A stretch of DNA of 41,533 nt from IMG/VR virus record IMGVR_UViG_3300033153_007667, positions 1 through 41,533 of that record; one strand, given 5' to 3'. This document shows, piece by piece, positions 1-41,533 of this stretch; position 1 is the first letter of the stretch, and the number at the start of each line of letters is the position of its first letter. The notes under the pieces were generated by a model. That model was not told the origin of the DNA and made no database searches. It worked only from the letters and a program-made list of their open reading frames with translations. This DNA comes from a virus. A program made the translations under genes and the position numbers.

Positions 1-114
1 GCTCCGCCACCAACCCCACCGCCAACAGCTGCACCCGTTAGGAACGGCATATCAGTACCTCTCTGGTTCGAACAGTGCGTGACGCGGCCCGATCACATGG
101 TCGGCCGATTGGAC
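1..114. repeat. Terminal direct repeat, left copy (circular overlap)
   Basis: These 114 bases recur exactly at 41420-41533. The repeat covers the 5' end of the glycine-rich virion gene and the 3' end of the next upstream gene, so it interrupts coding sequence rather than marking a non-coding terminus. The simplest reading is an assembler overlap from a circular or circularly permuted genome. A true short terminal repeat is possible but less likely given this location. Confidence 0.95.
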
Positions 115-674: not shown

Positions 675-877
675 TCGGCCAGGCCCCCCTTGCCCTGCGC
701 CGGCTTCGAGGTCGTCTGCTTCGCCAGGCTCTCGGTCAGCGTCGGCTTCGGCGCTGTCTTCGGGGCCGGCACGCCCACCGCCTGGTCGAAGGCCTTCACG
801 TCCCGAGCTCGTTGCTGGACACGGAGCTCGCGGCCGGAGTCGGTGTACTTCTTCGCGGTGTCGCTGTTGGTCGGCAT
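671..877 (-). CDS. Small hypothetical protein, 68 aa
   Basis: This is a short hydrophilic protein with a charged N-terminal half and a Pro/Lys/Thr-rich, probably disordered C-terminus. No family is recognised. The ATG at 877 is preferred because a GGGAG purine stretch sits about 8 bases upstream; an in-frame ATG at 892 is the alternative. Its stop overlaps the ATG of the next gene. The 61 bases between it and the upstream Acb2-like gene (878-938) hold nothing recognisable apart from this leader. Confidence 0.6.
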   Translation of the reverse strand: MPTNSDTAKKYTDSGRELRVQQRARDVKAFDQAVGVPAPKTAPKPTLTESLAKQTTSKPAQGKGGLAE

Positions 878-938
878 CAGTACGGCTCCCATGTAAAAAC
901 GGCCAAGAGCAGGAAGAGGCCTGCAGCAAGCCACCACA

Positions 939-1160
939 TCAGGTCGGCCCCTCGTTGCAGGCGATGGCCTGGTTGACCGCCATCGCCGTGTCGCGCAGCT
1001 TGCGGAGCGCGGCGGTCTGGTCGGCGCAGGCCGGCGTCGACTCGAGGATGATGTGCGCGAGCTCCTTGAAGCCGTCGCGAAGCAGCATGTACCGAGCGGC
1101 CTGGTTCGGCGTCGGCGTGTGGTAGGTGAACCAGTTGTCGATGTCGTCATGGGTAGCCAT
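939..1160 (-). CDS. Acb2/Tad1-like cyclic-nucleotide sponge candidate, 73 aa
   Basis: The protein resembles a widespread family of roughly 65-100 aa phage proteins that includes Acb2 (anti-CBASS) and Tad1-type sponges. Visible hallmarks are an N-terminal Asn-Trp-Phe-Thr-Tyr-His-x-Pro block (residues 9-16), then Leu-Arg-Asp-Gly-Phe-Lys-Glu-Leu-Ala. A Thr-Pro turn follows, then Ala-Asp-Gln-Thr-Ala-Ala-Leu-Arg-Lys-Leu-Arg, and a C-terminal Ala-x-Asn-Gln-Ala-Ile-Ala-Cys helix. The architecture is a helical hairpin. Family members bind cyclic oligonucleotide signals (cyclic dinucleotides for Acb2, gcADPR-type signals for Tad1) and so starve defence effectors; which ligand this one would bind cannot be read from sequence. 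The ATG at 1160 follows a strong GAGGAGA site and overlaps the upstream stop (TAATG). Family likeness is fairly clear; activity is inferred. Confidence 0.72.
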   Translation of the reverse strand: MATHDDIDNWFTYHTPTPNQAARYMLLRDGFKELAHIILESTPACADQTAALRKLRDTAMAVNQAIACNEGPT

Positions 1161-1303
1161 TACTGAGGGTTCTCCTCTTCGTCGTATGTCATGTCTTCCG
1201 GGTGCGGGATGTCCTCGTGGACGATGACTCGAGCACCACCGGCATGAACGGTGACTTGGCACTGCCCGCAGATGACGCAGAAGTAGGTAGAGAGATCCGG
1301 CAT
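1160..1303 (-). CDS. Tiny zinc-binding-like protein, 47 aa
   Basis: This 47-residue protein begins with a short helix-breaking lead, then Cys-Val-Ile-Cys-Gly-Gln-Cys, an unusual three-cysteine cluster that could coordinate a metal ion with the following His (residue 20) or act in dimerisation. The C-terminus is acidic. It overlaps its neighbours by one base at both ends (TGATG upstream, TAATG downstream), so it is probably translated by coupling. No family is assigned. Confidence 0.6.
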   Translation of the reverse strand: MPDLSTYFCVICGQCQVTVHAGGARVIVHEDIPHPEDMTYDEEENPQ

Positions 1304-2025
1304 CAGACCTTCTCCTCGTCGAGCTTGTGGTCGCCACACCAGTCGGTGAACTTCATCACCGGCCAGCCGCCCATGGTCGGACAGTGCTTCCGACAGCGGC
1401 CGATCCCGTCGCCGGGGTGATCGCCGGTCTTCCCCGCAGATGCTGGACGCTTCGGCACGTGCCACATGCACGTCGAGCACTTCATGCCCTGGCTGCGGTG
1501 CTTCCAGTTGTCAGCCTCGCCGATGGCCTCGATGGCCTTGTCCATCGTCATCGGCCATCCATCGCCGGCCTCGACGCGCTGCTGCTCGTGGTCGAGCGCA
1601 GCCTTGAGAAACGTCACGCCGACCCCGAGGATGTCGGCCGCGCCCTCGACCTTGCTCACGCAGCGGTCGCGCTCCGGCACCTCCCGCACCTTCAGCCGCT
1701 CGAACGCCTGGTCGATCTCGGCGCGGGACTCCGGCTTCTGATTGGCCCTCGCGAGGGCATCGACTCCGCCCGCCGTCTCGAACGCCTTCTCGGCCTCGAG
1801 GTTGTCGCGAACCGGGCCGCGCGCTTGGCGCTCGAGGTTCTCGACGAAGCACTCCGAGCAGGCGCAGCCCTCGCCGTGCGGGTGGCGCGGGTTGCCGCCG
1901 GAACGCGCGATGGCATTCCGACCCGAGGCCGTGGCCTGGAGCGCCTCGAACTCACTCGGTGCCATCCGCAGAAGCTCGTCTTGCGTGTACGTCCGGTGCG
2001 TCTGCCCGCCGTGGTCAGGACTCAT
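1303..2025 (-). CDS. Hypothetical protein with C-terminal zinc-ribbon-like module, 240 aa
   Basis: The N-terminal half contains a short Cys-x-Cys-x-x-Cys group (residues about 54-59) and a helical middle rich in Ala, Glu and Arg. The C-terminal 70 residues carry Cys-Ser-Thr-Cys-Met-Trp-His, then Cys-Arg-Lys-His-Cys-Pro and a final Trp-Cys-Gly-Asp-His, a pattern seen in small phage zinc-binding proteins. Zinc binding is inferred from this spacing. The ATG at 2025 overlaps the upstream 52-aa gene by 11 bases and its stop overlaps the next start (TGATG). Function unknown. Confidence 0.7.
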   Translation of the reverse strand: MSPDHGGQTHRTYTQDELLRMAPSEFEALQATASGRNAIARSGGNPRHPHGEGCACSECFVENLERQARGPVRDNLEAEKAFETAGGVDALARANQKPESRAEIDQAFERLKVREVPERDRCVSKVEGAADILGVGVTFLKAALDHEQQRVEAGDGWPMTMDKAIEAIGEADNWKHRSQGMKCSTCMWHVPKRPASAGKTGDHPGDGIGRCRKHCPTMGGWPVMKFTDWCGDHKLDEEKV

Positions 2026-14132: not shown

Positions 14133-14549
14133 TTACATGAGTTCGAAGTGGCCCAGGTCGAATGGCTTGTTGACATCGTGGAGGTCATGGTCCCGATCCC
14201 AGTCGCCACCCCACCTGATCGCGATCCCCAACATTGCCGCGGCCTGCTGCATGTGTCCAGCCAGGTGGATGAACTCCTCTTCGCAATTCCACCGGATGTG
14301 CGGGCGAGCTCGGAACCAGGGCGCGATGTCGATCGCCTTCGAGAGCTCGGGGAACGCGACGTTGTGCTTGGAGTTCGGCCACTTCTTCGTGCTGGCCCCG
14401 GTCTCGTAGGCCTGGTCCTGAGCAATCTGGCCTCGAGCACCCCAGACGACCGTGTGGTCGTAGACGGGGATCACGGCCATGCACACCTCGACCAGGCGCT
14501 TGTCGACAGTCGCGATCTTGGCCAGTGAGCTCTTGCCGTAGCGGCTCAC
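14133..14549 (-). CDS. Endolysin, M15-family peptidase, 138 aa
   Basis: This is a zinc peptidase of the VanY/L-alanyl-D-glutamate type that cuts peptidoglycan cross-bridges. Ser60-Lys-His62-Asn, Ser70-Lys-Ala-Ile-Asp74-Ile-Ala and Asp131-Leu-Gly-His134-Phe-Glu are the expected ligands. The compact length fits a single catalytic domain without a cell-wall-binding module. GTG at 14549 overlaps the upstream gene by 4 bases. It has no signal sequence, so it needs the holin for export. Confidence 0.85.
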   Translation of the reverse strand: MSRYGKSSLAKIATVDKRLVEVCMAVIPVYDHTVVWGARGQIAQDQAYETGASTKKWPNSKHNVAFPELSKAIDIAPWFRARPHIRWNCEEEFIHLAGHMQQAAAMLGIAIRWGGDWDRDHDLHDVNKPFDLGHFELM

Positions 14550-17800: not shown

Positions 17801-18857
17801 CCGCGTCGAAGTCGATGTGGTCGACGGCCGGGTCGTCGTCGGGGGTGAAGTTGTCGCCTCCAGGTGCGGTGTCCGAGGTGTGGTCGTGCGAATCGTTTAC
17901 AACGTCGCCATCGATGTCGAGGTCGTTCGCGTTGTCGAAGTCGATGATCTCGCCAGCCGCGTCGAGGTCGTGTGCGTTCGAGAAGTCCTCGATCAGACCA
18001 GCGATGTCACCGTAGGCGGCGTAACGCTTTGTCCCGAAAGAGTTCCCGCCGCAGTACGACAGCGGCTCGGCGTCGTTGACAGCCATCCGCCCTGATACGC
18101 CAGGGAAGCAACCGAGCACACCGACACCGAGATCCTCGATAAACCCAGCCTCGTCGCTCTTGGTGTCGACAAACCCACCGACGACCTCGAGGCCGGTGCG
18201 GATGTCGCCCTCGGTGACGATGTCAGCGGGGACTGGCGGGACCGTGTCAGAGGTGTGGTCGTGAGAGTCGGCGACGATCTCGGGGTCCATCCAGGTAGAC
18301 CCTGGGCCAGCGAGATCTCCGCCAGGGGTCGCGCCGGCCAGAACCTCGGCGGTGAGCTGGGGGTTGTTGACGTCGGTCGCGAGGATGTACTCGGCATCGA
18401 GCGGGGAGGGCTCACCCTGGTATGTGTACACCCATTCCGAACCGTTGTAGGTCTTGTTCTCGATCCGGTTGCACTGGAAAGTGATCGTCCCGCCACTCTC
18501 GGGTGTCAATACCCGGAAGCTCACGAACCCTCTGGTGAACTGTGCCTTGTGCGGTTCGGCGTCGGAGATGCTCAGGATCTCTTTGCAGTCGCTGCCCACG
18601 CCCCCGTAGTTGTTGTAGCAGTCGTTGACCGCAACGGTCGGGCTGGCGGCTACGGGAGTGATCGTGATCGTGGAAGACGTGTAGCAACCCGTGATGTCCT
18701 GATGCGGTGGCGCGGACTCGAGCGGCGACGCTCCGAACGCGTAAGAGAACGCCTGGTCGTAGTCGGCGTGGACAAACGCGATAGGATCCGCATCCACCCA
18801 CTGCGCGCTGGCGGGAAAGGCGAGGAGCAGCCCAGCCAGCAGTGCCAGCCGCTTCAT
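14886..18857 (-). CDS. Large secreted-type fibre/adhesin with Thr-Pro repeat, 1323 aa
   Basis: Located after the tail-collar gene, so probably a fibre or receptor-binding protein. Residues 1-18 look like a Sec signal peptide (Arg, Leu-Ala-rich core, Pro-Ala-Ser-Ala before Gln), which is rare for tail proteins. Asp-Ser-His-Asp-His-Thr-Ser-Asp-Thr occurs twice in the first third, like the metal-binding His-x-His of tail fibres. A Cys-rich region (about 540-755) follows, then a Thr-Pro-x-Thr-Pro linker (about 967-1155) and a Gly-rich C-terminal domain with a likely disulphide pair. ATG at 18857 overlaps the previous stop; GTG at 18860 is an alternative start. It could be a phage fibre or a protein secreted into the host envelope. 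Confidence 0.6.
15400..15962 (-). repeat. Thr-Pro coding minisatellite in the large fibre gene
   Basis: This stretch encodes degenerate Thr-Pro-Thr-Ala/Ser-Thr-Pro units, interrupted about nine times by an Asp-Val/Ile/Ala-Pro(-Pro)-Thr-Pro spacer. DNA repeats are short, GC-rich and imperfect, and prone to slippage. The encoded linker should be extended, stiff and possibly O-glycosylated, separating the head part of the fibre from its C-terminal domain. Confidence 0.9.
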
Positions 18858-19918
18858 CACAGGACACCCGAGTAGATGAGGTAGCCCGAGACGATCGAGG
18901 CCTGCCGGTTCTCGTGACCGTCACCGAGACCAGAGTTCGAGATCGTGTGAGTGTGGTTCCCTTCGGTGCCGATGGGGGCGCTCTGGGTAGAGCTGGGGCT
19001 GTCGTTAGCTCCCTCCTTCAGGGTCGTCGGGTCTCCGCCTCCGGTGTTGTGCGTCCTGACCGTATGGTCATGGGCGCCGTCGCCCCCGGTGGCTCCGCCA
19101 TGGTTGTGCTGCGGCCCTTCGTCCTCGGTGAGCACATGCTTCTTCTCGCCGACCCAGGTGTCGTTGTTGTCCCCCGTGATGAAGTTGTAGTCGCCATCGG
19201 GCTCTTCGTCGTCGGGGTGCGCCGCGTCCCAGAAGCCCACCGGCACGCGACCAGCAAAGTCCGGCACTCGGAAGTAGTTGTTTGTTGGGGCTCCGAGGCT
19301 CGGGTGCTCGTCGTAATAGCCGTCGCCTGCCCCGGTTGCACCCATCGCAGCTGCCAGCGCGGGGTAGCTGGCGACCAGGTACTCGTCCCCGTCGCACTGG
19401 AGCCATCCGTTGATCGCTGCCGCGGACTGGAGCGTGGCGGTCATTTTCAGGTCGCCGACCGCGGGCTGCGGAGCGAAAGCGCCGGGGTCGATGCTCTTCG
19501 CGAAGTAGACATCGGCGCCATCGTCGACGAATGTCAGCGGCACGTTAGTACCGATGATGGTCACGATTGTGTCGGACGCACTGTAGTTCACAGAGAGAAC
19601 GTGCGACTCCACATACGGAGGCCCGCCACCAGGTCGCATCCGAACGCGTCGCCCTACGGTGAAGTAGGCAGTCGCGTCGCAGTCCTCGACGCGGAACGAG
19701 CTCGCGTCGATCTTTGAGACCGTCTTCGGCCCGCGCACTGTGAGGTCTCGAGTGATCGAGAGCCACTCGGGATCGTCGTACCAAGTGCGGACCACCGTCA
19801 TCACTTCGCGGCCCCACTCGTTGACGTCCGCCCCTTTCCAGCCGACCTCGGCTCCGTCCGGTACCGGGAACCCGTTGGTCGCCGGGGTCACCGACCACTC
19901 TTCAAGAAGGATCGTCAT
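18857..19918 (-). CDS. Tail-collar-domain fibre protein, 353 aa
   Basis: This is a tail fibre or short-tail-collar protein. Residues about 160-235 match the Phage Tail Collar domain: Gly-Trp-Leu-Gln-Cys-Asp-Gly, Tyr-Pro-Ala-Leu-Ala-Ala, and [10 protein letters not shown]. The C-terminus is His-rich (His-Asn-His, His-Asp-His, His-Thr-His), a metal-binding trimer-fibre pattern. Its N-terminus should attach to the tail. The gene is coupled to the ejection protein upstream (TGATG) and the large fibre downstream. Confidence 0.85.
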
Positions 19919-28238: not shown

Positions 28239-29231
28239 CTATCCCTTCAGGTCGTAGACCGCGCCGTGTGCGAGCTCGTTGCACATCTCGAGCGTCCACT
28301 CGACCAGCATCTCGCGCTTGATCGAGTCGCCGACCTTGGCGAGATCGAACTGCTGCCAGGGCCGCAGATACGCCATCTTCATGTACTCGGGATCGAGTGC
28401 GAAGACGATCGAGTCGAGCGTCGGCGATGCGGCGAGCGGGTAGATGTGCCGCGAGGGCACAACCCGGAGCTCACCGAAGTTGCTGACGTAGAGATCGACC
28501 GTGGCGTAGATCGTGCGCGCCGCCCTGTCCGAACGAGTGACACCGGAGGCGCCCACCGTCCCGACACCGTCCATCAGCGAGATGTTCGTCTTCTGCGTCG
28601 GACCGACCAGCAGCACCGAGGGCTTCGCGCCCGCGGCCCATGCCAGCTGGATCACGCTGTCGACCATCCCCTGGGTGATCGTGCGTCCCGTGCCGTCCAC
28701 TCGGACGGTGGTGACACCGCTCGAGTACCCACCACCGGAGCCCACCGTGCTGATGTTCGTCTTGATCCAGGTCATCAGCGCCCCGGACTGTCGCGGTGTG
28801 TCCGCGTCCGTGACCTGAGCCTGGCTCGGCTGGTTCAGCCCCGTCATCGCGAAGTCGACGTCCTTCTTCAGCTCCCGCGCGGCCTTTGCAGCCTGGTACG
28901 CGAGCTCCGAGTCACGACCGTACTTCTCGGTGACTTCGAGCGTCCCCGTGACGTTGAACAGCTTGATCGAGATCTGCGTGTAGTTCTGCAGCAACGTGGT
29001 GGCGCCGACCGCGACATCCGTCGCGTCCTCGCCTTCGTTGTGAGCATTGGCAGCCGGATCTTCGAGAGCATCCGTCTGCCACTGGTGAAGCGTGCTGCCG
29101 GAAGACGTCGTCCCAATCATGCTCAGGAGCGGAGTCTCCGTCGGGCTGATGTTGTGAATCAGATCGGAAACGTCTTCACGTTGTCCGTTCGCCTCGAGAC
29201 TGTCGTAGAGATTGGCCGGAATGCCTGCCAT
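28239..29231 (-). CDS. Major capsid protein, SU10/DUF5309-like, 330 aa
   Basis: The N-terminus Arg-Glu-Asp-Val-Ser-Asp-Leu-Ile-His-Asn-Ile-Ser-Pro-Thr-Glu-Thr-Pro-Leu-Leu-Ser is the hallmark of the DUF5309 (SU10-type) HK97-fold capsid family, followed by a Trp-Gln-Thr-Asp block. The length is typical. It forms the icosahedral shell and follows the scaffold gene. ATG at 29231 follows GAGGT. The neighbouring adaptor and portal families agree. Confidence 0.9.
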   Translation of the reverse strand: MAGIPANLYDSLEANGQREDVSDLIHNISPTETPLLSMIGTTSSGSTLHQWQTDALEDPAANAHNEGEDATDVAVGATTLLQNYTQISIKLFNVTGTLEVTEKYGRDSELAYQAAKAARELKKDVDFAMTGLNQPSQAQVTDADTPRQSGALMTWIKTNISTVGSGGGYSSGVTTVRVDGTGRTITQGMVDSVIQLAWAAGAKPSVLLVGPTQKTNISLMDGVGTVGASGVTRSDRAARTIYATVDLYVSNFGELRVVPSRHIYPLAASPTLDSIVFALDPEYMKMAYLRPWQQFDLAKVGDSIKREMLVEWTLEMCNELAHGAVYDLKG

Positions 29232-29243
29232 TTGAGAAAGACC

Positions 29244-30395
29244 TCATACGCGGCTCGCCCCAGCTGAAGCTCTGGACCTCTTCGCCCGTTCCTTCGCGAG
29301 GAACACCGCTGCTGCGGCATCGCGAGAGTCCGGATGCTTCTCGAGGTTCGCCATTGCGACATCGACCTCTGACCGTTGCGTCTCCCCGGTATCGCGTGGC
29401 GATCCGGAACGTACTGGTCTCGGTTTCTTTGCCAGTGCTCTGCGGACTGCAGGTGCGGTCTTCCGTGTCGCCTTGTCGTATTCCTGTGCTTTCCACACAA
29501 GAGTGACGTAGCGGTGGTCGTCGACCTGATCCCACTCCTCCGGACTGAGACCACCCCCGTCCGAAGCCAACGCGTAGCGACTGAGAGCGTCGTACTCTCT
29601 GTCGAAATTCTTCTTGAATCGCGGAACCTTGGCCGCGAGCGCCTCGCGCTCTGCAGGTACCCGAGCGGCCCGCTGCTCGTCGACTCTGCGAGCGGCCTCG
29701 GCCTCGGCGTTCTGCCTGAGCTGCGTGGCCTGGGCGATCGCGCCCTGCTTGCGCCGCATGTCTTCCATGCGCGCGGCGTACTCGCCGGGGTCGACAGCGC
29801 GCAGCTTCTCCATCTCCTGGGTGCTCGGGAGCACGCTCTGAAGGTGTGCCTGGAGCTCCGTAGCGAGTGCGGCATTCTGGGCCACCTGCTTCTCGAACGC
29901 CTGGTAGGCGCCGCCGACCTTGTCTTCGAACAGCCGGCGCTGCTCGCCGAGCTCCGTCGTCTTGGCCGTGTAGTCCTGCTGCCGCATGTAGCCTTCTTGG
30001 AGGTCCTGAAAGCTGACCTCGACGTCGTTCGGCAGCGTGATTCTGGCCTCGAGAGGGATTTCCAGGTCCTGGGGATCGCCCTGTGGCTCCGCCTGGCCAG
30101 GATCAGCCTGCGGCTCGGGTGCTTGGGCGTCCGGGTCGGCGTTCGGCTCTCCTGAGGGATCCTCGTCGGCCTTCTTGGGCTCGGGCTCGCCGTCGGCCTC
30201 TACGAGCTCGTCGAGCGACGTTTCCAGGGTCGTCGGCTCTCGCTGGGGCTCGGCGTCCGGATCCAGGGCCGGAAGGCCCGCAGCCGCGCGCACCTTGGCC
30301 TTGCGCGCCTGCTCCATGTCGAAAAAGGCTTTCGCGGCTTCGTCAACGCCTGCTGTAGGACTGTTTTGGCTCTCGAACGCGGGATCGGGCGGCAT
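29244..30395 (-). CDS. Capsid scaffolding protein, 383 aa
   Basis: An acidic Pro/Glu/Asp-rich N-terminal half (residues 30-110) and a long charged coiled-coil C-terminal half are typical of a scaffold. It directly precedes the capsid gene. ATG at 30395 is preferred, with GGAAAGG 5 bases upstream; GTG at 30401 is an alternative that would start within that site. The ribosome site lies in a hairpin, so its translation may be limited. It would be lost or cleaved on maturation; no protease domain is seen. Confidence 0.75.
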   Translation of the reverse strand: MPPDPAFESQNSPTAGVDEAAKAFFDMEQARKAKVRAAAGLPALDPDAEPQREPTTLETSLDELVEADGEPEPKKADEDPSGEPNADPDAQAPEPQADPGQAEPQGDPQDLEIPLEARITLPNDVEVSFQDLQEGYMRQQDYTAKTTELGEQRRLFEDKVGGAYQAFEKQVAQNAALATELQAHLQSVLPSTQEMEKLRAVDPGEYAARMEDMRRKQGAIAQATQLRQNAEAEAARRVDEQRAARVPAEREALAAKVPRFKKNFDREYDALSRYALASDGGGLSPEEWDQVDDHRYVTLVWKAQEYDKATRKTAPAVRRALAKKPRPVRSGSPRDTGETQRSEVDVAMANLEKHPDSRDAAAAVFLAKERAKRSRASAGASRV

Positions 30396-30400
30396 ATTCA

Positions 30401-30418
30401 CCTTTCCGGGGGGAAAGG
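30401..30418 (-). promoter_or_regulatory. Hairpin masking the scaffold ribosome binding site
   Basis: On the minus strand CCTTTCC-CCCC-GGAAAGG is a perfect 7-bp stem with a 4-base loop. The 3' arm is the ribosome binding site of the scaffold gene, 5 bases from the ATG at 30395. Hidden in the stem, it could limit or delay scaffold synthesis unless opened. The stem is seen directly; the regulatory effect is inferred. Confidence 0.55.
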
Positions 30419-30447: not shown

Positions 30448-30801
30448 TCAGCCATCCGCAACTTTTTGTTGCGATTCGACGTACTTGGCACGCTCTTCTC
30501 TGGCCGTATTGAGGTACTCGACCACCGATTCGCGCCTCTTCCTGCGTTCGCTGAGCTTGTCGTGTTTTGCGACCAGCTGGTCCGTGGCGTTGCGCCCCAG
30601 AGTGATCACGGCCAGCAGATAGGCCACAAACTCCTCCACCGCATGCGCTCGAAGCCGGGCGTTCCAGGCCTCATCGGCGTTGGTGGCTCCATGGAAGCTC
30701 TGCAGGGCCCACTCCTGCGTCGCGCCGATCGCGTCCTGCAGGATCGGGTTCTTCGAGACCGCGATGGCCTCCGCGCCGCGCTGTTCCGGTGTCCTGGGCA
30801 T
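30448..30801 (-). CDS. Small head-region helical protein, 117 aa
   Basis: This helical protein has Asn-Pro-Ile-Leu-Gln-Asp-Ala-Ile and a basic, Gln-rich coiled end. Small proteins with a similar start occur between portal and scaffold in podoviruses. ATG at 30801 overlaps the portal stop (TGATG). A role in assembly or packaging is inferred from position. The 52 bases after it carry only the scaffold leader. Confidence 0.65.
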   Translation of the reverse strand: MPRTPEQRGAEAIAVSKNPILQDAIGATQEWALQSFHGATNADEAWNARLRAHAVEEFVAYLLAVITLGRNATDQLVAKHDKLSERRKRRESVVEYLNTAREERAKYVESQQKVADG

Positions 30802-33068
30802 CAGGCGAGACCTCCCGCTTGCGGTTGAGCCGGCGGCGGACCCTGCGGTGTCGCCGGAGGCGGCTCGATCGAGTTGGCCGTGGCGCCGGGCGGCGTGATG
30901 TGCCAGCCGAGATCGACGAGGGCCTGGTAGCCCTCGGCGCGGATCTTCTGGATGTCGACCTCGTGGCTGAGCTCTGTCTTCTTGATCTCGAGCATCAGCT
31001 TGTCGCGATCGAGCTCCACCTTCTGGCGCTCGAGCTCCACCCGCATGTACTCGACCTCGGCCGCGGCCTTCACGGCCTCCTCGGTCGGATCAGGCTTGGG
31101 CTCGGGCGGATCCACCGTCGACGGGTCGGTGAAGTACTGCTCCGGCGATCGGAACCCGAGGGCCTCGACCAGGTCGGAGACCGTGTTGAAGAAATTGCTG
31201 TCCGAGACCATGTGCGTGAAGCCCATCTCGGCAATCGCCTTCTGCACCTCGGCGATGGTCTGCAGGTTCATCGACTTCTCCATCTTCGAACCGTGGCCCA
31301 GCCCCACCGTCACCTGGCAGTCGACTTCGGTCGCCCAGGCGGTCGGGTCGACGTGGACGTACTCGCCGCGCACCCGGATCATCATGCCGCGCGTGTCGTG
31401 CTGCATGAGCAGCATGTAGATCTTCTCGAACAGGTGCTTTACCCCGGTGTCGGCGAAGATCCGCGCGTAGAGCGTGATCCTGGTCGCCGCCGCCGAACTC
31501 TGCACCATCGTCCCGTAGACGTGCTTGCTGATCGAGTCCGGGTTGATGCCCATCGCCTCGGGCGAGATTCCGGTACGCGCCTCGCGCATCTTCAGGTGCG
31601 CGTCGAACGCCGGCAGGATGTCCGCGGCGTTGCTCTTCTGCTCGTAGGGTCGCAGCGCGTTCGGCTCGTACTCCTCGATATAGCCGCCGGCCGCAGCATC
31701 GAGCAGCTGCGTGAGGTTGACCATCGGCGTCGACGCGTCGGCCTGGCCTCGAGAGAGCACGATGTTGCGCGGGTCAGTCGCAAGATAGAGGCAGTCGAGG
31801 AACTGACGCCACAGTGTGGTGTTGATGTCCTGCAGGTCCTTCGTCGCATCGGCCAGAGAGAGGCCGTGAAAACGGTGCGGGACCGGGATCGGCGTTACCG
31901 ATACGAACGGATGCCCGTTCGCCGGCTCGGTGTGGAGAATGACTTGTGCGTAGTCCCCCCCGGTAACCACCTTCCACCATTCGCTCACGCCATCACCGTC
32001 CCGGTCCACTAGGACGTAACACTCGGAGATGTACACCGTTCTCTCGGAATCCTTCCGGTCTGCGAACACCAGCGGGAAAGAGTCGTCCTGGCTTGCGCGG
32101 ATGATCGAGTCCTGGTCGGTGCTGTAGACCGAGTGCGCGCTCGGAATCGACTTCACGATTTCCGGGTCGTAGCCCAGGCCGATCAGCTTGCTTTCGCTCG
32201 CGCGGATCCGCTCGCCAACGAACCGACAGGTCGGGTCGTAGAGGCTTCGCGCGTCGCGGTTGATGATAAACTCCTCGGGCGGCACGTTCTCGAGTGCGAT
32301 CTTGCCGGCGCGCTTGTATCGCACGCCCTCGATGTCGTACCGGACCCGCATCGGGTCATGGTTCTCGGGAAGCATGCTCTCTTCGTCGAGGACCTCGCGC
32401 TCGCCCGTCTTCTGGTTGATGTGCCACGCCTCGACGGCGCGGATCTCGTAGTCTTCGTCGTCGAAGATGGCCTGCAGCTCGATGAGCGGCTTGCCCTCGT
32501 AGTTCTCGAAGGTGACCGCGCTCGAGTCCTCGAACCAGACCTTCACGATGCCGTTTTTCTGTATCAGCGCGTCCTTGAACATGGTGTAGAGCACCATGAA
32601 GCCGTCTTCGCGGCCGAACACATGGTTGACCATCTCGGTGGCCTGCTCGGCTGACTGGATGTCGTCATCGTTTTTCGGAACGAACCGCACGACGCGCGGC
32701 CCGCTGCAGAAGATCTCCATCAGGCTCGGAAGCAGCCACTCCACCTGCTCGAAGATGTCGCGCGTGACCACCTGGCTGCGGCCTTCGCGCTCGTCGCCTC
32801 GAGGATTGCCGAAGTACTGCGCCATCGAACTGCGACGCGTCTCGGCCAGGCGAGTGCCTGTCCACCCCAATCCAGAGTCGATCTCGCGCTGGACGATTCC
32901 GAGCAGCTGGCGCTCGTCGATCACAAACTCGTCGCCGGCACCCTCCTGCGGCTGCCTGTCTTCGGGGAAGTCCTCTGATGTCGGGAGCTCTTCGAACCCG
33001 TCGACCGAAGGGAACACCGCGCCTTGTTCTTCGTCGGGATCTTGCCCGCCCACTCGATAGTCGTCCAT
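30801..33068 (-). CDS. Portal protein, 755 aa
   Basis: A long portal of the podovirus head-to-tail connector type. It has an acidic N-terminal part, then Met-Ala-Gln-Tyr-Phe-Gly-Asn-Pro, Arg-Ser-Gln-Val-Val and Asp-Ile-Phe-Glu-Gln-Val-Glu-Trp-Leu-Leu-Pro-Ser-Leu, a characteristic early portal motif. The core has Gly-Leu-Ser-Leu-Ala-Asp and long C-terminal helices. The end is Pro/Gln-rich. It forms the dodecameric DNA gate at one vertex. ATG at 33068; it follows TerL. Confidence 0.85.
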   Translation of the reverse strand: MDDYRVGGQDPDEEQGAVFPSVDGFEELPTSEDFPEDRQPQEGAGDEFVIDERQLLGIVQREIDSGLGWTGTRLAETRRSSMAQYFGNPRGDEREGRSQVVTRDIFEQVEWLLPSLMEIFCSGPRVVRFVPKNDDDIQSAEQATEMVNHVFGREDGFMVLYTMFKDALIQKNGIVKVWFEDSSAVTFENYEGKPLIELQAIFDDEDYEIRAVEAWHINQKTGEREVLDEESMLPENHDPMRVRYDIEGVRYKRAGKIALENVPPEEFIINRDARSLYDPTCRFVGERIRASESKLIGLGYDPEIVKSIPSAHSVYSTDQDSIIRASQDDSFPLVFADRKDSERTVYISECYVLVDRDGDGVSEWWKVVTGGDYAQVILHTEPANGHPFVSVTPIPVPHRFHGLSLADATKDLQDINTTLWRQFLDCLYLATDPRNIVLSRGQADASTPMVNLTQLLDAAAGGYIEEYEPNALRPYEQKSNAADILPAFDAHLKMREARTGISPEAMGINPDSISKHVYGTMVQSSAAATRITLYARIFADTGVKHLFEKIYMLLMQHDTRGMMIRVRGEYVHVDPTAWATEVDCQVTVGLGHGSKMEKSMNLQTIAEVQKAIAEMGFTHMVSDSNFFNTVSDLVEALGFRSPEQYFTDPSTVDPPEPKPDPTEEAVKAAAEVEYMRVELERQKVELDRDKLMLEIKKTELSHEVDIQKIRAEGYQALVDLGWHITPPGATANSIEPPPATPQGPPPAQPQAGGLA

Positions 33069-33081
33069 CGCTCCGTCCCCC

Positions 33082-34524
33082 TCAGGTCATCCAGCGTGTG
33101 TTCGGTTTTGGTCTCGCGACGTTTGGCATCGCGCGTAGCCCCAGCGCGAGGTACCGGAACGCATCCGCTCCATGCGACGACCAGTGGTCGTGCCGCGGCA
33201 CGTCCGTGAGCTCGCCAGTCGATCGGTTCTTCTTGCGGCTGTAGTTCTCGAGACACGCAATCCCATCGCCCGTGTGCTCTTCGTCAAAGTTGCAAAGCGA
33301 CAGGATCCGCCTGACCGCGTCGATCCCTTCCGCGAGCTCGCCGCCGAGCTTCACGAGTGTCCTGTCGAGGATCCGGAAGTGGATGCCGAGCTCCTGGGCC
33401 ACGGCCGTGCGCGCGACACCGGGCGACCAGTCACGCACTTTGATGTCATGCGGCGCGATGTGCTCGCGGTAGACGTAAGGCTTCTCCTGCAGGATCTTCG
33501 CGTAGTGCGGCAGGCCCTGCCCGGTCGCCTCGTAGTAGTCGATCAGGTTGACCCGGCTGCCGAGCTGCTGGAAGAACCAGATTGCGGTGGCGTCGCGCAT
33601 GCCGATGTCCCAGGACGTGTTCACCGGATACTGCGGGTCGTAAGGGAACACGCCGATGCGTCCCTCTTCGCGCGCCTTGGCCATGAGCTCGCCGTAGTAG
33701 GCGCCCTCGACTACTTCTGGGAACAGGCCGCGGACCCGTGTCTGCCAAGCGTTGGAGTCGACGCCCCAGATCTCGAGGCGCTCGGCTACCCATGCCGGTG
33801 TAATGAGCTCGGGGTGCGGCATCTTCTTGTCGCCGATCTTCTTCTCCCACTCTCCGCTGATCATGTCCTCTTCGGTGATGCCGAAGGCCAGGAAGTTGGG
33901 CGTGTCCCAGGCGGCAATCGGAATGGTGTTCACCGCGCTGGACTCGCAGTCTCGCTCGAAGCTACAGCCGCTGATGACGGGGTTGCCGATCAGGAGCTTG
34001 CGCGCATGACCGCCGGCCAGGAGCGAGTCGATCTGATCCATCAGTGCCGCGCTGATGCCGGAGGCCTCGTCGACCACCACCAGGATGTGTGGCGCGTGAA
34101 AGCCCTGAAAGCGCGACTCGTCCCAGTCGGGAGCGGTGAAGCCCCAGATCCAGTGGTCGGCGTCGAACTTGAGCTGCATCGCCGTGGCTTCGCCGCCGAG
34201 CGGCATGCTCGAGCTCTTCGCTGCGCGATGTATCTCACCCCAGAGCACGCCCTTCACCTGACGTTCTGTCGGCGCCGTCGTGATGACCTTTGCTCCGGGG
34301 TGACACGAGCCGAACCACAAAGAGATCCGCCCGGCCGTCCACGACTTCCCGCTCGAGTGGCACGAGGGAACCGCCGTCACGCGGTTGTCGCGCACCGACT
34401 CCATGATCGCCACCTGCGTGTTCCACGGGTCGTCGCCGAGGACCTCGCTCACGAAGAACTCGGGGTCCTTCTGGCAGCGGCCGTAGATGACGGCGGCGTC
34501 TCTTTGCGAGAGCGAGAGGCTCAC
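33082..34524 (-). CDS. Terminase large subunit, 480 aa
   Basis: The packaging motor has an ATPase with Walker A Cys55-His-Ser-Ser-Gly-Lys60-Ser and Walker B Ile-Leu-Val-Val-Val-Asp152-Glu153-Ala-Ser. The nuclease has Ser-Trp-Asp306-Ile-Gly-Met-Arg, Asp360-Ile-Lys and His-Gly-Ala-Asp454-Ala-Phe, as in the RNase H-like domain. GTG at 34524 overlaps the upstream gene (GTGA). It cuts concatemers and pumps DNA into capsids via the portal. The small subunit is not identified with confidence. Confidence 0.9.
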   Translation of the reverse strand: MSLSLSQRDAAVIYGRCQKDPEFFVSEVLGDDPWNTQVAIMESVRDNRVTAVPSCHSSGKSWTAGRISLWFGSCHPGAKVITTAPTERQVKGVLWGEIHRAAKSSSMPLGGEATAMQLKFDADHWIWGFTAPDWDESRFQGFHAPHILVVVDEASGISAALMDQIDSLLAGGHARKLLIGNPVISGCSFERDCESSAVNTIPIAAWDTPNFLAFGITEEDMISGEWEKKIGDKKMPHPELITPAWVAERLEIWGVDSNAWQTRVRGLFPEVVEGAYYGELMAKAREEGRIGVFPYDPQYPVNTSWDIGMRDATAIWFFQQLGSRVNLIDYYEATGQGLPHYAKILQEKPYVYREHIAPHDIKVRDWSPGVARTAVAQELGIHFRILDRTLVKLGGELAEGIDAVRRILSLCNFDEEHTGDGIACLENYSRKKNRSTGELTDVPRHDHWSSHGADAFRYLALGLRAMPNVARPKPNTRWMT

Positions 34525-38337: not shown

Positions 38338-40060
38338 CCGAGTTCCAGTAGCTGATCATGGTCATTTCGCGGTCGCGCATCTCTTCGGTCCAGCCGATAG
38401 TGCCGCCCTCGAGCTCTTCGCCCAAGAAGTTCTCACGGATCCAGTCGGAGTAGTCGGAGTTGTGGGCGTCGACCTCGTCGGCGAAGTCCTCGAGGTCCGA
38501 CGCATCCATGTTATGAAGCCGCTCGATCTCTTCGGCGGGGATGTCGGCTGGGTCGAACGAGTTATGTGTCAGCGCCCGTGCTGCTGCTCCACCGCGCTCG
38601 TCGAGCCACGACTGTGTGTCGGGGTGGCGATTGGCCGGTGTTAGGCCTCCCGTCCGCGGGTTGTTGTCGCGCATGTGTCGCTGATAAGCGTCATCGTCGA
38701 ACAGGTGGCGGATGTTCTCTGGGAGCCTCGCTCGGTACCGTTCGACCGCCTCGTTGACCAGGTCCATCGCGTCCTGGTCGCCGGACTGCCGTGCCGCCCA
38801 GCCGCGATCGAGCATCTCGAAGACGACGTTCTCGCCGTGGTTGATCTCATCGGTCTGCACCATGAGCTCGAAGGCTTCGTCGCCGTCACCCTGCTCGATC
38901 GCGTTCTCGATTCGCGACCAGTTGTTGTCCCACTCGAGCTGCCCTGGTGCTTGGATTTCCGGCTCGTCGTAGAGAGGCTGCGCCGGCCTGCGCTCGAGTC
39001 TCTGGTCGGGCCTGGTCGTCACGCTGAAGTCGTGCTCGGGGTCGAGCTCCTCGAACTCGAGGCGCGTCTGTTCGTCGGCCCGGTACCGGGCGCGCTCTGC
39101 CTCGAGAGCTCTGTCGGCTTCGGACAGTTTGCCCGGCATCCGAGCTCGCCGACCCAGCCCACCGACACGCAGCGGTGGCGTCCACGGAATCGCCATGTCG
39201 ACGCCGAGCTCAGCTGCCATGCCGACGCCGGCCTTCTCGAGGCGACGGTCGGACTCGCCTCGCATGGCCAGCGCACCCTCGCCGCCGGGGAGCTCGCGCA
39301 TCCGGTCTTCGTAGTGTTCGCCAAAGCGGGCGAGTGAGGCGTACCCGCTGTCGGCGTCATGGATCGTGCGCCCGAGCGCGCCGACTGCGGAGGTGGCCTC
39401 GTGCGGACCCAGCATGAAGGTGGTCAGGCCAGACTGCCCGAGAGCTCGGCCCTGCTCGATCTTGTACTCGAGGTCCTCCATGTTCATGTTCCGGGACTGC
39501 CCGAGAGCTCGGCCCTGCTCGATCTTGTACTCGAGGTCCTCCATGTTCATGTTCCGGCCGGGAGTGTGGCGTGCCTCGCGCTCGGCGGCTTCGTCACCAG
39601 GTCCTGGCTCTCGACTGCGGAGCCACTGCTCACCAGGCGGTGGCTGCAGCTGGTACTGCGAGGCCCTGGCAACCTTGAGCGGCCACGTCACGTCCTGCCG
39701 GGCCTTGATCGCGTAGTCCCTGTTGCGCTCGACCAGCCCACCTACGGCTGAGCGGAGCGGAGCCAGGCGTGCCATGCCTCGGGACCAGCTCAGCCCCTCG
39801 CCGTGCCCGTCGCCCATGATCCGCTCGGCATCCTCCATGCGCTGCTCGGTCTGGCTGAGGATGAGGTCCGATTCCTCGGACCACTCGCGCGAGAACTCTT
39901 CGGCGCCTTCGTCCATCCCGCCCGGCAGGCGAGCGAGGCCCCTCGGCACCTTCTGCAGCGGGCCTGTCCGCGGCGATCTGCCCTGGCGCGGACGTAGAGC
40001 CCCGGTGACGGACTTGGGGATCTCGTCGGTGCTCACGGTACGCTGCCATGAGTAGGCCAT
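37940..40060 (-). CDS. Large helical protein, 5' fragment of frameshifted gene
   Basis: The protein-like part runs from ATG 40060 to about 38290; the remaining codons down to 37940 are Arg-rich out-of-frame sequence. The open part has a helical start with Ser-Glu-Glu-Ser-Asp-Leu-Ile-Leu-Ser, an exact tandem duplication of 21 residues and charged helices such as Ile-Glu-Asn-Ala-Ile-Glu-Gln-Gly. The direct fusion to the downstream frame gives continuous helical sequence, so it is most likely one gene broken by an indel. ATG at 40060 overlaps the glycine-rich gene stop (TGATG). Likely a virion protein. Confidence 0.65.
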   Translation of the reverse strand: MAYSWQRTVSTDEIPKSVTGALRPRQGRSPRTGPLQKVPRGLARLPGGMDEGAEEFSREWSEESDLILSQTEQRMEDAERIMGDGHGEGLSWSRGMARLAPLRSAVGGLVERNRDYAIKARQDVTWPLKVARASQYQLQPPPGEQWLRSREPGPGDEAAEREARHTPGRNMNMEDLEYKIEQGRALGQSRNMNMEDLEYKIEQGRALGQSGLTTFMLGPHEATSAVGALGRTIHDADSGYASLARFGEHYEDRMRELPGGEGALAMRGESDRRLEKAGVGMAAELGVDMAIPWTPPLRVGGLGRRARMPGKLSEADRALEAERARYRADEQTRLEFEELDPEHDFSVTTRPDQRLERRPAQPLYDEPEIQAPGQLEWDNNWSRIENAIEQGDGDEAFELMVQTDEINHGENVVFEMLDRGWAARQSGDQDAMDLVNEAVERYRARLPENIRHLFDDDAYQRHMRDNNPRTGGLTPANRHPDTQSWLDERGGAAARALTHNSFDPADIPAEEIERLHNMDASDLEDFADEVDAHNSDYSDWIRENFLGEELEGGTIGWTEEMRDREMTMISYWNSGENGQELAREMAARHGEGPRATGRDGPAAFSGRLVPRAPPVPRVESRHRRGPVRRPLRRLRSRRDPHADRRPPGTRGLRRGLRSGASVRLPGRRQRPGTHRQAGPARIVSASTGPIRRDGANDHRWPRNVAA
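39432..39557 (-). repeat. Exact 63-bp tandem duplication
   Basis: Two identical 63-bp copies (39432-39494 and 39495-39557) encode a 21-residue helix with Met-Asn-Met-Glu-Asp-Leu-Glu-Tyr-Lys. Together with the 66-bp pair in the other fragment, it shows this gene is actively changing in length. Confidence 0.9.
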
Positions 40061-41469
40061 CAGAACAGCCCGCCACCCCGACGCTGCGGTGTGTTGTAGA
40101 GCGAGTGGAAACTCTGCGACCCTGTGGTTCTGGGCACCTCGCGAAGCGGCAGCGAGGCCGGCATCTGCGGGAATCCGCCCTGATCTCCTGCTTCGTTGGA
40201 GCCCTCGAAGATCTGCCCGGCCAGCTTCTTGTAGTCGTCGTAGCCCATCTCGCCGACGTCGGCGCCCAGCCGCTCGAGCCAGTTGGGCTCACCACCACCC
40301 TCCTGCTGCCCGTACTGGCTGAAGTCGGCCGGTGATGGCGCGTGGACTGCCTCACCTGACATCGACGTCATGTTAGGCGCAGGCTCCATGAACTGATTGA
40401 CGCCGCCGCCTGCCATGGGGGACGGGAGCGCACCGCCGCCGGGGTTGAGACCTCCGCCCGCCCTGTCAAACGCGCCGCCGGGTGCGAGACCGCCGTAGCC
40501 CTGAGGCACCTCATCGGTGATCGCTCCGTATGACTCTCCGCTGGCCCGATCCACCATGGAGCCCTGCGCGGATCGGCCGGGAGGGGGTGCGTTGTGGCCG
40601 GGTCGCTGCGCCGTCGAGATCCCTTCCTGCGTGCCGTAGTTGATCCCGGCGTCGACGCCTTTCCTGATCCCGGATTCGAGACCCTTCTCGAGTGCGCTCT
40701 GCTCGATGCCCGGCCCTGGCCCGAGTTCCGGCATCACTCCTGGGCCCAGCTCCGTGCTCGTCGTCGTCGTCGTCGTCGGCGCCACTTCACCGATCTCAGC
40801 CGCGGGCGCTACTTCAGCCACCGGAGCTGCTTCAGCCGGTGCTGCTGCCGCGGGCGTCGCCGCCGCGGGCGCTGCCTCCGCCCCTGCCGCCGGGATAGCT
40901 TCCGAGGTTCCGAGCACCGTCGTGGATCCGCCGCCAAGCCCACCACCGCCGCCAGCCCCACCGCCGCCAGCTCCTCCGCCGAGGCTAAGGCCACCGCCGC
41001 CAGCTCCTCCGCCAACACCGCCACCAGTCGCACCGCCGACGCCGCCGGCTCCACCACCGACTCCGCCACCAACACCACCAGCTGTTCCGCCACCGACTCC
41101 GCCACCGACTCCACCACCGACGCCGCCTCCGACACCGCCGCCAACACCGCCGCCAACACCTGCACCAGCACCAGCGCCAGCGCCGACTCCAGTGCCGGCG
41201 CCCGCTGCGCCCATTGCGCTCGAGACGACCGACGATGCTGCGATGGCGGGACCAGTCACTCCAGCGGCAACGCCTCCAGCGATCCCGCCAGTGATACCGC
41301 CCGCTACACCACCACCGACACCAGCTCCGACGCCAGCGCCAACACCACCACTGACACCGCCCGCTGTCGCGCCACCAGCAACGCCGCCCGCCGTCGCACC
41401 GCCAGCCGCTCCGCCGGCTGCTCCGCCACCAACCCCACCGCCAACAGCTGCACCCGTTAGGAACGGCAT
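40060..41469 (-). CDS. Glycine-rich virion protein, 469 aa
   Basis: The first 190 residues are almost entirely Gly, Ala and Val, with Gly-Gly-Gly-Val quartets like glycine zippers or polyglycine helices. A Pro/Ala/Glu/Thr linker (about 190-245) follows, then a mixed C-terminal half with a Leu-Glu-Arg-Leu-Gly-Ala-Asp-Val segment. Such composition suits an ejection protein that enters the host envelope, or a structural fibre. ATG at 41469 follows AGAGAGG. Function is inferred only; the frame is supported by coupling at both ends. Confidence 0.7.
   Translation of the reverse strand: MPFLTGAAVGGGVGGGAAGGAAGGATAGGVAGGATAGGVSGGVGAGVGAGVGGGVAGGITGGIAGGVAAGVTGPAIAASSVVSSAMGAAGAGTGVGAGAGAGAGVGGGVGGGVGGGVGGGVGGGVGGGTAGGVGGGVGGGAGGVGGATGGGVGGGAGGGGLSLGGGAGGGGAGGGGGLGGGSTTVLGTSEAIPAAGAEAAPAAATPAAAAPAEAAPVAEVAPAAEIGEVAPTTTTTTSTELGPGVMPELGPGPGIEQSALEKGLESGIRKGVDAGINYGTQEGISTAQRPGHNAPPPGRSAQGSMVDRASGESYGAITDEVPQGYGGLAPGGAFDRAGGGLNPGGGALPSPMAGGGVNQFMEPAPNMTSMSGEAVHAPSPADFSQYGQQEGGGEPNWLERLGADVGEMGYDDYKKLAGQIFEGSNEAGDQGGFPQMPASLPLREVPRTTGSQSFHSLYNTPQRRGGGLF
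40915..41460 (-). repeat. Glycine/valine codon repeat tract
   Basis: Simple-sequence coding region made of repeated GGC/GGT/GTT-type codons with a period of about 12 bases (Gly-Gly-Gly-Val). It produces long, apparently open but meaningless frames on the opposite strand. The exact repeat number is sensitive to assembly. Confidence 0.8.
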
Positions 41470-41533
41470 ATCAGTACCTCTCTGGTTCGAACAGTGCGTG
41501 ACGCGGCCCGATCACATGGTCGGCCGATTGGAC
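41420..41533. repeat. Terminal direct repeat, right copy
   Basis: Exact match to positions 1-114; it begins inside the glycine-rich gene and ends in the gene at 52-414, showing that the two contig ends are the same place on a circle. Unique length is therefore 41,419 bp. Confidence 0.95.
41471..41533 (-). CDS. C-terminal fragment of the 120-aa protein (duplicate by overlap)
   Basis: These bases repeat 52-114 and code for the last 20 residues and stop of the hypothetical protein at 52-414. It is cut by the contig end and is not an extra gene. Confidence 0.85.
   Translation of the reverse strand, partial: VQSADHVIGPRHALFEPERY

Follow-up and report, generated by a model that had tools for sequence, protein, structure and literature searches.

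A probable Acb2-type cyclic-nucleotide sponge gene in a 41-kb viral genome and the Arg53 subclade to which it belongs

Cyclic-nucleotide sponges reveal the alarm signals that phages meet in nature. In the characterised members, the cyclic nucleotides of CBASS are sequestered, so that effector activation and cell suicide are prevented (PMC12043709, PMC10419184). A short leftward open reading frame close to the left end of a 41,533-nucleotide stretch of viral DNA, analysed here in full as the window, raises the question of whether its product is such a sponge and, if so, which signal it would capture.

The locus and its genome

Translation of the reverse strand at 939-1160 gave the 73-residue product MATHDDIDNWFTYHTPTPNQAARYMLLRDGFKELAHIILESTPACADQTAALRKLRDTAMAVNQAIACNEGPT. 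The coordinates, strand, length and motifs quoted in the preliminary description of this locus were all correct on re-translation, and the leftward operon that it had proposed is compatible with the overlapping starts and stops of the gene, TAATG at 1160 and TGATG at 939. These overlaps place the gene in a tightly packed leftward string that is probably translationally coupled. The closest relatives, in L022 (71%) and L023 (64%), begin with the same Met-Ala-Thr. Compared with these two genes, the third codon positions are the most variable (23 and 36 changes, where the first and second positions have 13-18) and the NG86 dN/dS ratios are 0.40 and 0.17, as expected of a coding gene under selection. 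The GC3 of the gene is 0.93 in a genome with 65% GC. The open reading frame is not a chance one, and the original observation is confirmed.

The first 114 nt of the window are identical to the last 114 nt, indicating that the genome is complete and closes into a circle of 41,419 bp (Table 1). Across the junction, the terminase gene follows ~7.8 kb downstream of the sponge gene. The circular reading is supported by L022, in which the gene order is identical: 2523-like, 1303-like, sponge, 52-like, 40060-like and 36103-like. No near-identical DNA was found among phage records for positions 1-25000 of the window.

Table 1. Positions of the sponge gene, its putative pocket codons, its neighbours and other annotated features of the window
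Feature	Position	Strand	Remark
Exact end repeat, 114 nt	1..114 and 41420-41533	direct	
Hydrophobic 20-aa ORF, putative	877..939	-	starts on the sponge stop codon
Acb2-type sponge gene, predicted	939..1160	-	73 aa; ATG at 1160, TGA at 939-941
A46 to R53, codons 46-53	1002..1025	-	A46 mostly Arg in the family; R53 mostly Thr (T4 T68 position)
R28, codon 28	1077..1079	-	aligned to T4 Acb2 K23 and PaP2 K26
F-T-Y-H, codons 11-14	1119..1130	-	Y13 aligned to T4 Acb2 Y8 and PaP2 Y11
47-aa ORF upstream of the sponge gene	1160..1303	-	overlaps the sponge start codon
240-aa neighbour	1303..2025	-	C-terminal Cys/His-rich domain (CxxC...GRCRxHxP...WCGDH)
Endolysin	14133-14549	-	
Tail protein	18857-19918	-	
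Major head protein	28239-29231	-	
Scaffold	29244-30401	-	
Portal	30801-33068	-	
Terminase large subunit	33082-34524	-	

The 47-aa ORF belongs to no Pfam or PHROG family, and the 20-aa ORF (MWWLAAGLFLLLAVFTWEPY) was not found downstream of the sponge gene in its nearest relatives. The Cys/His-rich domain of the 240-aa neighbour, with the consensus DNWKHRxxGMKCxTCMW...GRCRxHxPxxxGxP...DWCGDHKLDExK, had no PHROG match. It adjoins the sponge gene in L022, L023, L078 and L123 and lies ~4 kb from it in L053/L054. We considered this neighbour as an obligate companion of the sponge and rejected the idea, as a sponge gene lies within 6 kb of only 4 of the 31 IMG/VR loci that encode the domain. The suggestion that the tiny genes nearby may also be host-defence inhibitors found no support, since none of the seven flanking genes received a Pfam or PHROG assignment of that kind.

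Two further features of the genome were recorded. The reverse-strand gene at 40060-41469, whose start lies inside the end repeat, encodes a product of 469 aa that matches no family and whose long N-terminal part is rich in Gly, Ala and Val. A tRNA-like element on the reverse strand at 2829-2925 has an acceptor-like GGAACC...GGTTCC pairing and a perfect T-arm, GCCGG-UUCGAAU-CCGGU; it was matched by neither ARAGORN nor Rfam, and its fold z-score is only -1.8.

Family assignment and predicted fold

The product matches PF24729 (Acb2/Tad1, hairpin domain) across the whole model, positions 1-58, at 35.4-35.9 bits and E=9e-9, against a curated Pfam cut-off of 27 bits. As positive controls, T4 (70.3 bits), PaP2 (65.3) and SBSphiJ7 (35.2) were each matched at one place, which in T4 is Vs.4, the T4 Acb2. 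The profile was over its cut-off in none of 14 unrelated control genomes, and the sponge gene is the sole place over cut-off in the genome studied here. All 20 relatives tested match the profile as well. The product also matches PHROG 1454, labelled 'unknown function', at E=6.9e-14, while none of the NCBIfam models matched it. Homologues with less than 60% identity were found by tblastn in 103 phage records, and scans of IMG/VR with two different pattern sets returned at least 404 and at least 561 relatives.

A single-sequence search of the PDB with the product returned no meaningful match, and an alignment profile was needed. With a profile of 59 relatives, the top match was 9PTQ, 'Acb2 homolog 43', at E=1.2e-4; Tad1 chains and T4 Vs.4 were lower in the list and non-significant. 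9PTQ, the best solved relative by profile, has 76 residues and keeps the F and H of FxYH. It differs from the product in that a Thr replaces the Tyr of this motif and in that it carries R38 and T45, the Arg46/Thr53-type residues. Our literature search found no paper on 9PTQ.

The AlphaFold2 model, built from a 59-sequence alignment, has helices at residues 4-10, 18-41 and 46-69 (mean pLDDT 91.8, pTM 0.79), which form a short N-terminal helix followed by two antiparallel helices. The predicted fold has the architecture described for the Acb2 protomer (PMC12043709, PMC10419184). Foldseek against BFVD recovered Acb2/Tad1 hairpin proteins at probability 1.00 with weak E-values (best 0.016). Foldseek against the PDB with the same model recovered no Acb2 or Tad1 structure, the best match having E=3.6. 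Small helical hairpins are poorly suited as Foldseek queries, and the family was recovered by sequence profiles, so we read this miss, for which a positive control was not run, as insensitivity to a 73-aa hairpin and not as a negative result for the family. The preliminary description had called the product Acb2/Tad1-like and had named a profile search and a fold prediction as ways to check it; the curated profile match over its cut-off upholds the family call, and the monomer model yielded the helical hairpin that was anticipated.

The solved Acb2 proteins, T4 Vs.4 (7UQ2) and the homologue of Pseudomonas phage PaP2 (8H2J), fall under the same Pfam profile and likewise consist of a helix and two long antiparallel helices without a beta domain. 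The product differs from them in its shorter hairpin (73 aa compared with 88-93 aa, with no insert between the long helices) and in having FxYHxP where they have KGY, and its direct pairwise similarity to both is very low. As judged from profiles and alignments, the gene is an additional and fairly ordinary member of a known family with its own Pfam entry. Acb2-type sponges have been known since 2022-2023 and are already annotated in other environmental phages, such as the Microbacterium phage Statler, in which an Acb2 was predicted by homology (PMC13348362). Statler, a different phage from the present one, is likewise environmental and of high GC, and its Acb2 is likened here by annotation alone.

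The same family also includes the C-terminal hairpin of Tad1 (SBSphiJ7; 7UAV, 8SMD), and the product might instead act against Thoeris in the manner of Tad1, by sequestering gcADPR either alone or together with CBASS signals. The hairpin domain is common to both proteins, the family profile aligns to the C-terminal helix of Tad1, and the PF24729 score of SBSphiJ7 is close to that of the product. However, the gcADPR pocket of Tad1 is built partly from loops of its N-terminal beta-sheet domain (PMC12043709), a domain that the pocket needs and that is absent from the product: AlphaFold2 predicted no beta-strands or beta domain in the 73 residues, and only an 11-residue segment precedes the PF24729 match, which starts at residue 12. 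We also considered a longer, Tad1-like protein of 132 aa starting from a GTG at 1337. This start was rejected because the in-frame extension, which is rich in Arg and Ser, shadows the 47-aa ORF that it overlaps, and because relatives share the Met start of the 73-aa product. We therefore regard a gcADPR sponge as quite unlikely. The missing Tad1 beta-sheet domain favours binding of cyclic di- or trinucleotides in the manner of Acb2, and 'Acb2-type, probably anti-CBASS' is a better supported label than 'anti-Thoeris'. Where the locus had been described as anti-CBASS or anti-Thoeris, the first half is the more probable, with a hairpin-only protein of the Acb2 type, and the second is the less supported.

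Putative pocket residues and the Arg53 subclade

We examined the residues that correspond to the binding pocket of the characterised sponges. T4 Acb2 was aligned to the product by HMM without gaps, so that Y8 is matched by Y13 and K23 by R28. The counterpart of R28 in the PaP2 homologue is K26, and Y11 stands opposite Y13 by the same register. The spacing from the tyrosine to the basic residue is 15 residues in all three proteins. The local T4 alignment at the Y8/K23 end scores low (-1.2 bits), and the argument for the T4 pocket accordingly leans on the ungapped register and the common spacing. Both residues of Pseudomonas-phage Acb2, Y11 and K26, reportedly bind 3'3'-cGAMP, as Huiting et al. 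are said to have found in 2023. In T4 Acb2, the Y8A mutant is binding-deficient and T68M has lowered affinity (PMC12657230). Among 154 distinct family members, F11 is present in 149, Y13 in 149, H14 in 152 and R28 in 151, the remainder at R28 being gaps, and in both clades N63 hardly varies, as is also the case for Y13 and R28. The alignments show that the tyrosine and the basic residue of the known Acb2 binding pocket are conserved in the predicted sponge.

The product departs from the characterised members at positions 46 and 53. Among 228 distinct relatives, drawn from sequence sets that were partly picked by patterns touching these columns, the 46/53 pair is Arg/Thr in 151, Ala/Arg in 58 and Pro/Arg in 10. 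Arg46 is accompanied by a residue other than Arg53 in 157 of the 228, these 151 included, and Arg53 by a residue other than Arg46 in 69; one relative has both arginines and one has neither. Both states are also found in the untargeted set of phage records from tblastn. Thr occupies the position equivalent to R53 in T4 Acb2 (T68), PaP2, SBSphiJ7 Tad1 and 9PTQ, and Tad1 has the Arg46/Thr53-type residues where the product has A46 and R53. The product thus belongs to the Arg53 class and lacks the Thr at the T68 position, a residue that is linked to affinity in T4 and is no accepted family-defining criterion.

In a poorly resolved tree of 63 columns, from which the class-defining columns had been removed, the two classes need ~3 changes compared with ~51 for shuffled labels. 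This is consistent with an Arg53 class that is essentially one subclade rather than the outcome of repeated compensation. The mutual exclusivity of Arg46 and Arg53 as a product of repeated compensatory evolution was rejected, as ~3 changes fit one origin plus noise.

No solved or tested member of the Arg53 branch was found. Given the exchange of Thr for R53 and the loss of Arg46 relative to the characterised members, the ligand preference of this subclade may differ from theirs. The R46-to-A and T53-to-R sites are possibly pocket-forming, and these changes could weaken binding of the usual ligand. A more specific proposal, which we put forward tentatively and think rather doubtful, is that the uncharacterised subclade of 69 distinct sequences has switched signal molecule through a basic residue placed two helical turns along. 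An arginine on the second long helix would replace the affinity-linked threonine, and the ligand would be unlike that of T4- or Pseudomonas-type Acb2 or of Tad1. The branch is large, and the family as a whole comprises hundreds of IMG/VR loci. Should the Arg/Thr change shift the ligand preference, a screen of the branch could uncover immune signals of the hosts; otherwise the gene is just one more member of a family that is already well understood. The Arg53 subclade is the one part of these results that might surprise a specialist.

Proposed function and homologues in other phages

We consider it likely that the product is a nucleotide sponge of the Acb2 type, which would capture host CBASS signals, on the basis of the curated profile, the predicted helix and hairpin, and the conserved pocket tyrosine and basic residue. 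By analogy with characterised relatives, six protomers would assemble into a compact hexamer, and the interfaces of this hexamer would bind cyclic dinucleotides, with cyclic trinucleotides as possible further ligands. The ligands would be the products of the host CBASS enzyme after infection. Sequestered signals could not activate the suicide effector, and the cell would stay alive for as long as the phage needs to replicate. Carriage of Acb2 has a known cost, as it triggers Panoptes, a sensor of such sponges (PMC12657218, PMC12657230).

The gene could also be a family member that has given up signal sequestration for another job, for example in the packaging module, where a helical hairpin might serve a structural or regulatory purpose. 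A location near the terminase is common among relatives (36 loci, at a median of ~1.1 kb before a terminase-like gene), the portal adjoins it in some, and two pocket-region residues are altered in the clade of the product. Against this, the near-invariance of Y13, R28 and N63 extends across both clades, and the position of the gene differs by phage, with neighbours that include terminase, recombination, sigma-factor, HicA/HicB or tRNA genes. Such variable placement suits an accessory counter-defence gene and not a fixed structural part. We therefore judge a packaging role very unlikely and retain the Acb2-type sponge as the preferred reading.

Several homologues elsewhere are of separate interest. 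Those of Paenibacillus and Brevibacillus phages are named 'putative phosphomannomutase' in GenBank, which we judge to be a misannotation, as the products are hairpins of 68-71 aa that match PF24729. The name is carried by L003, L004, L016 and other Paenibacillus/Brevibacillus phage records and was apparently propagated among them. In the cyanophage S-2L, an unannotated hairpin homologue lies between S2L_47 and S2L_48 (L014:1992-2207, forward strand). The homologues of the mycobacteriophages ScoobyDoobyDoo, Nergal, MalagasyRose and Myrna (L005, L010, L013 and L020) are longer, at 148-195 aa, and combine the hairpin with long N- or C-terminal extensions. The sponge reading frame of L080 and L095 (near 4.6-5.2 kb) is split over two frames, suggesting a frameshift or a sequencing error. 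In the Gordonia phage FlyingTortilla, the main match to the hairpin profile is preceded, at a distance of ~2.8 kb upstream, by a second, weak match (L012:3-203, forward strand, E=5e-4), which is possibly a second sponge.
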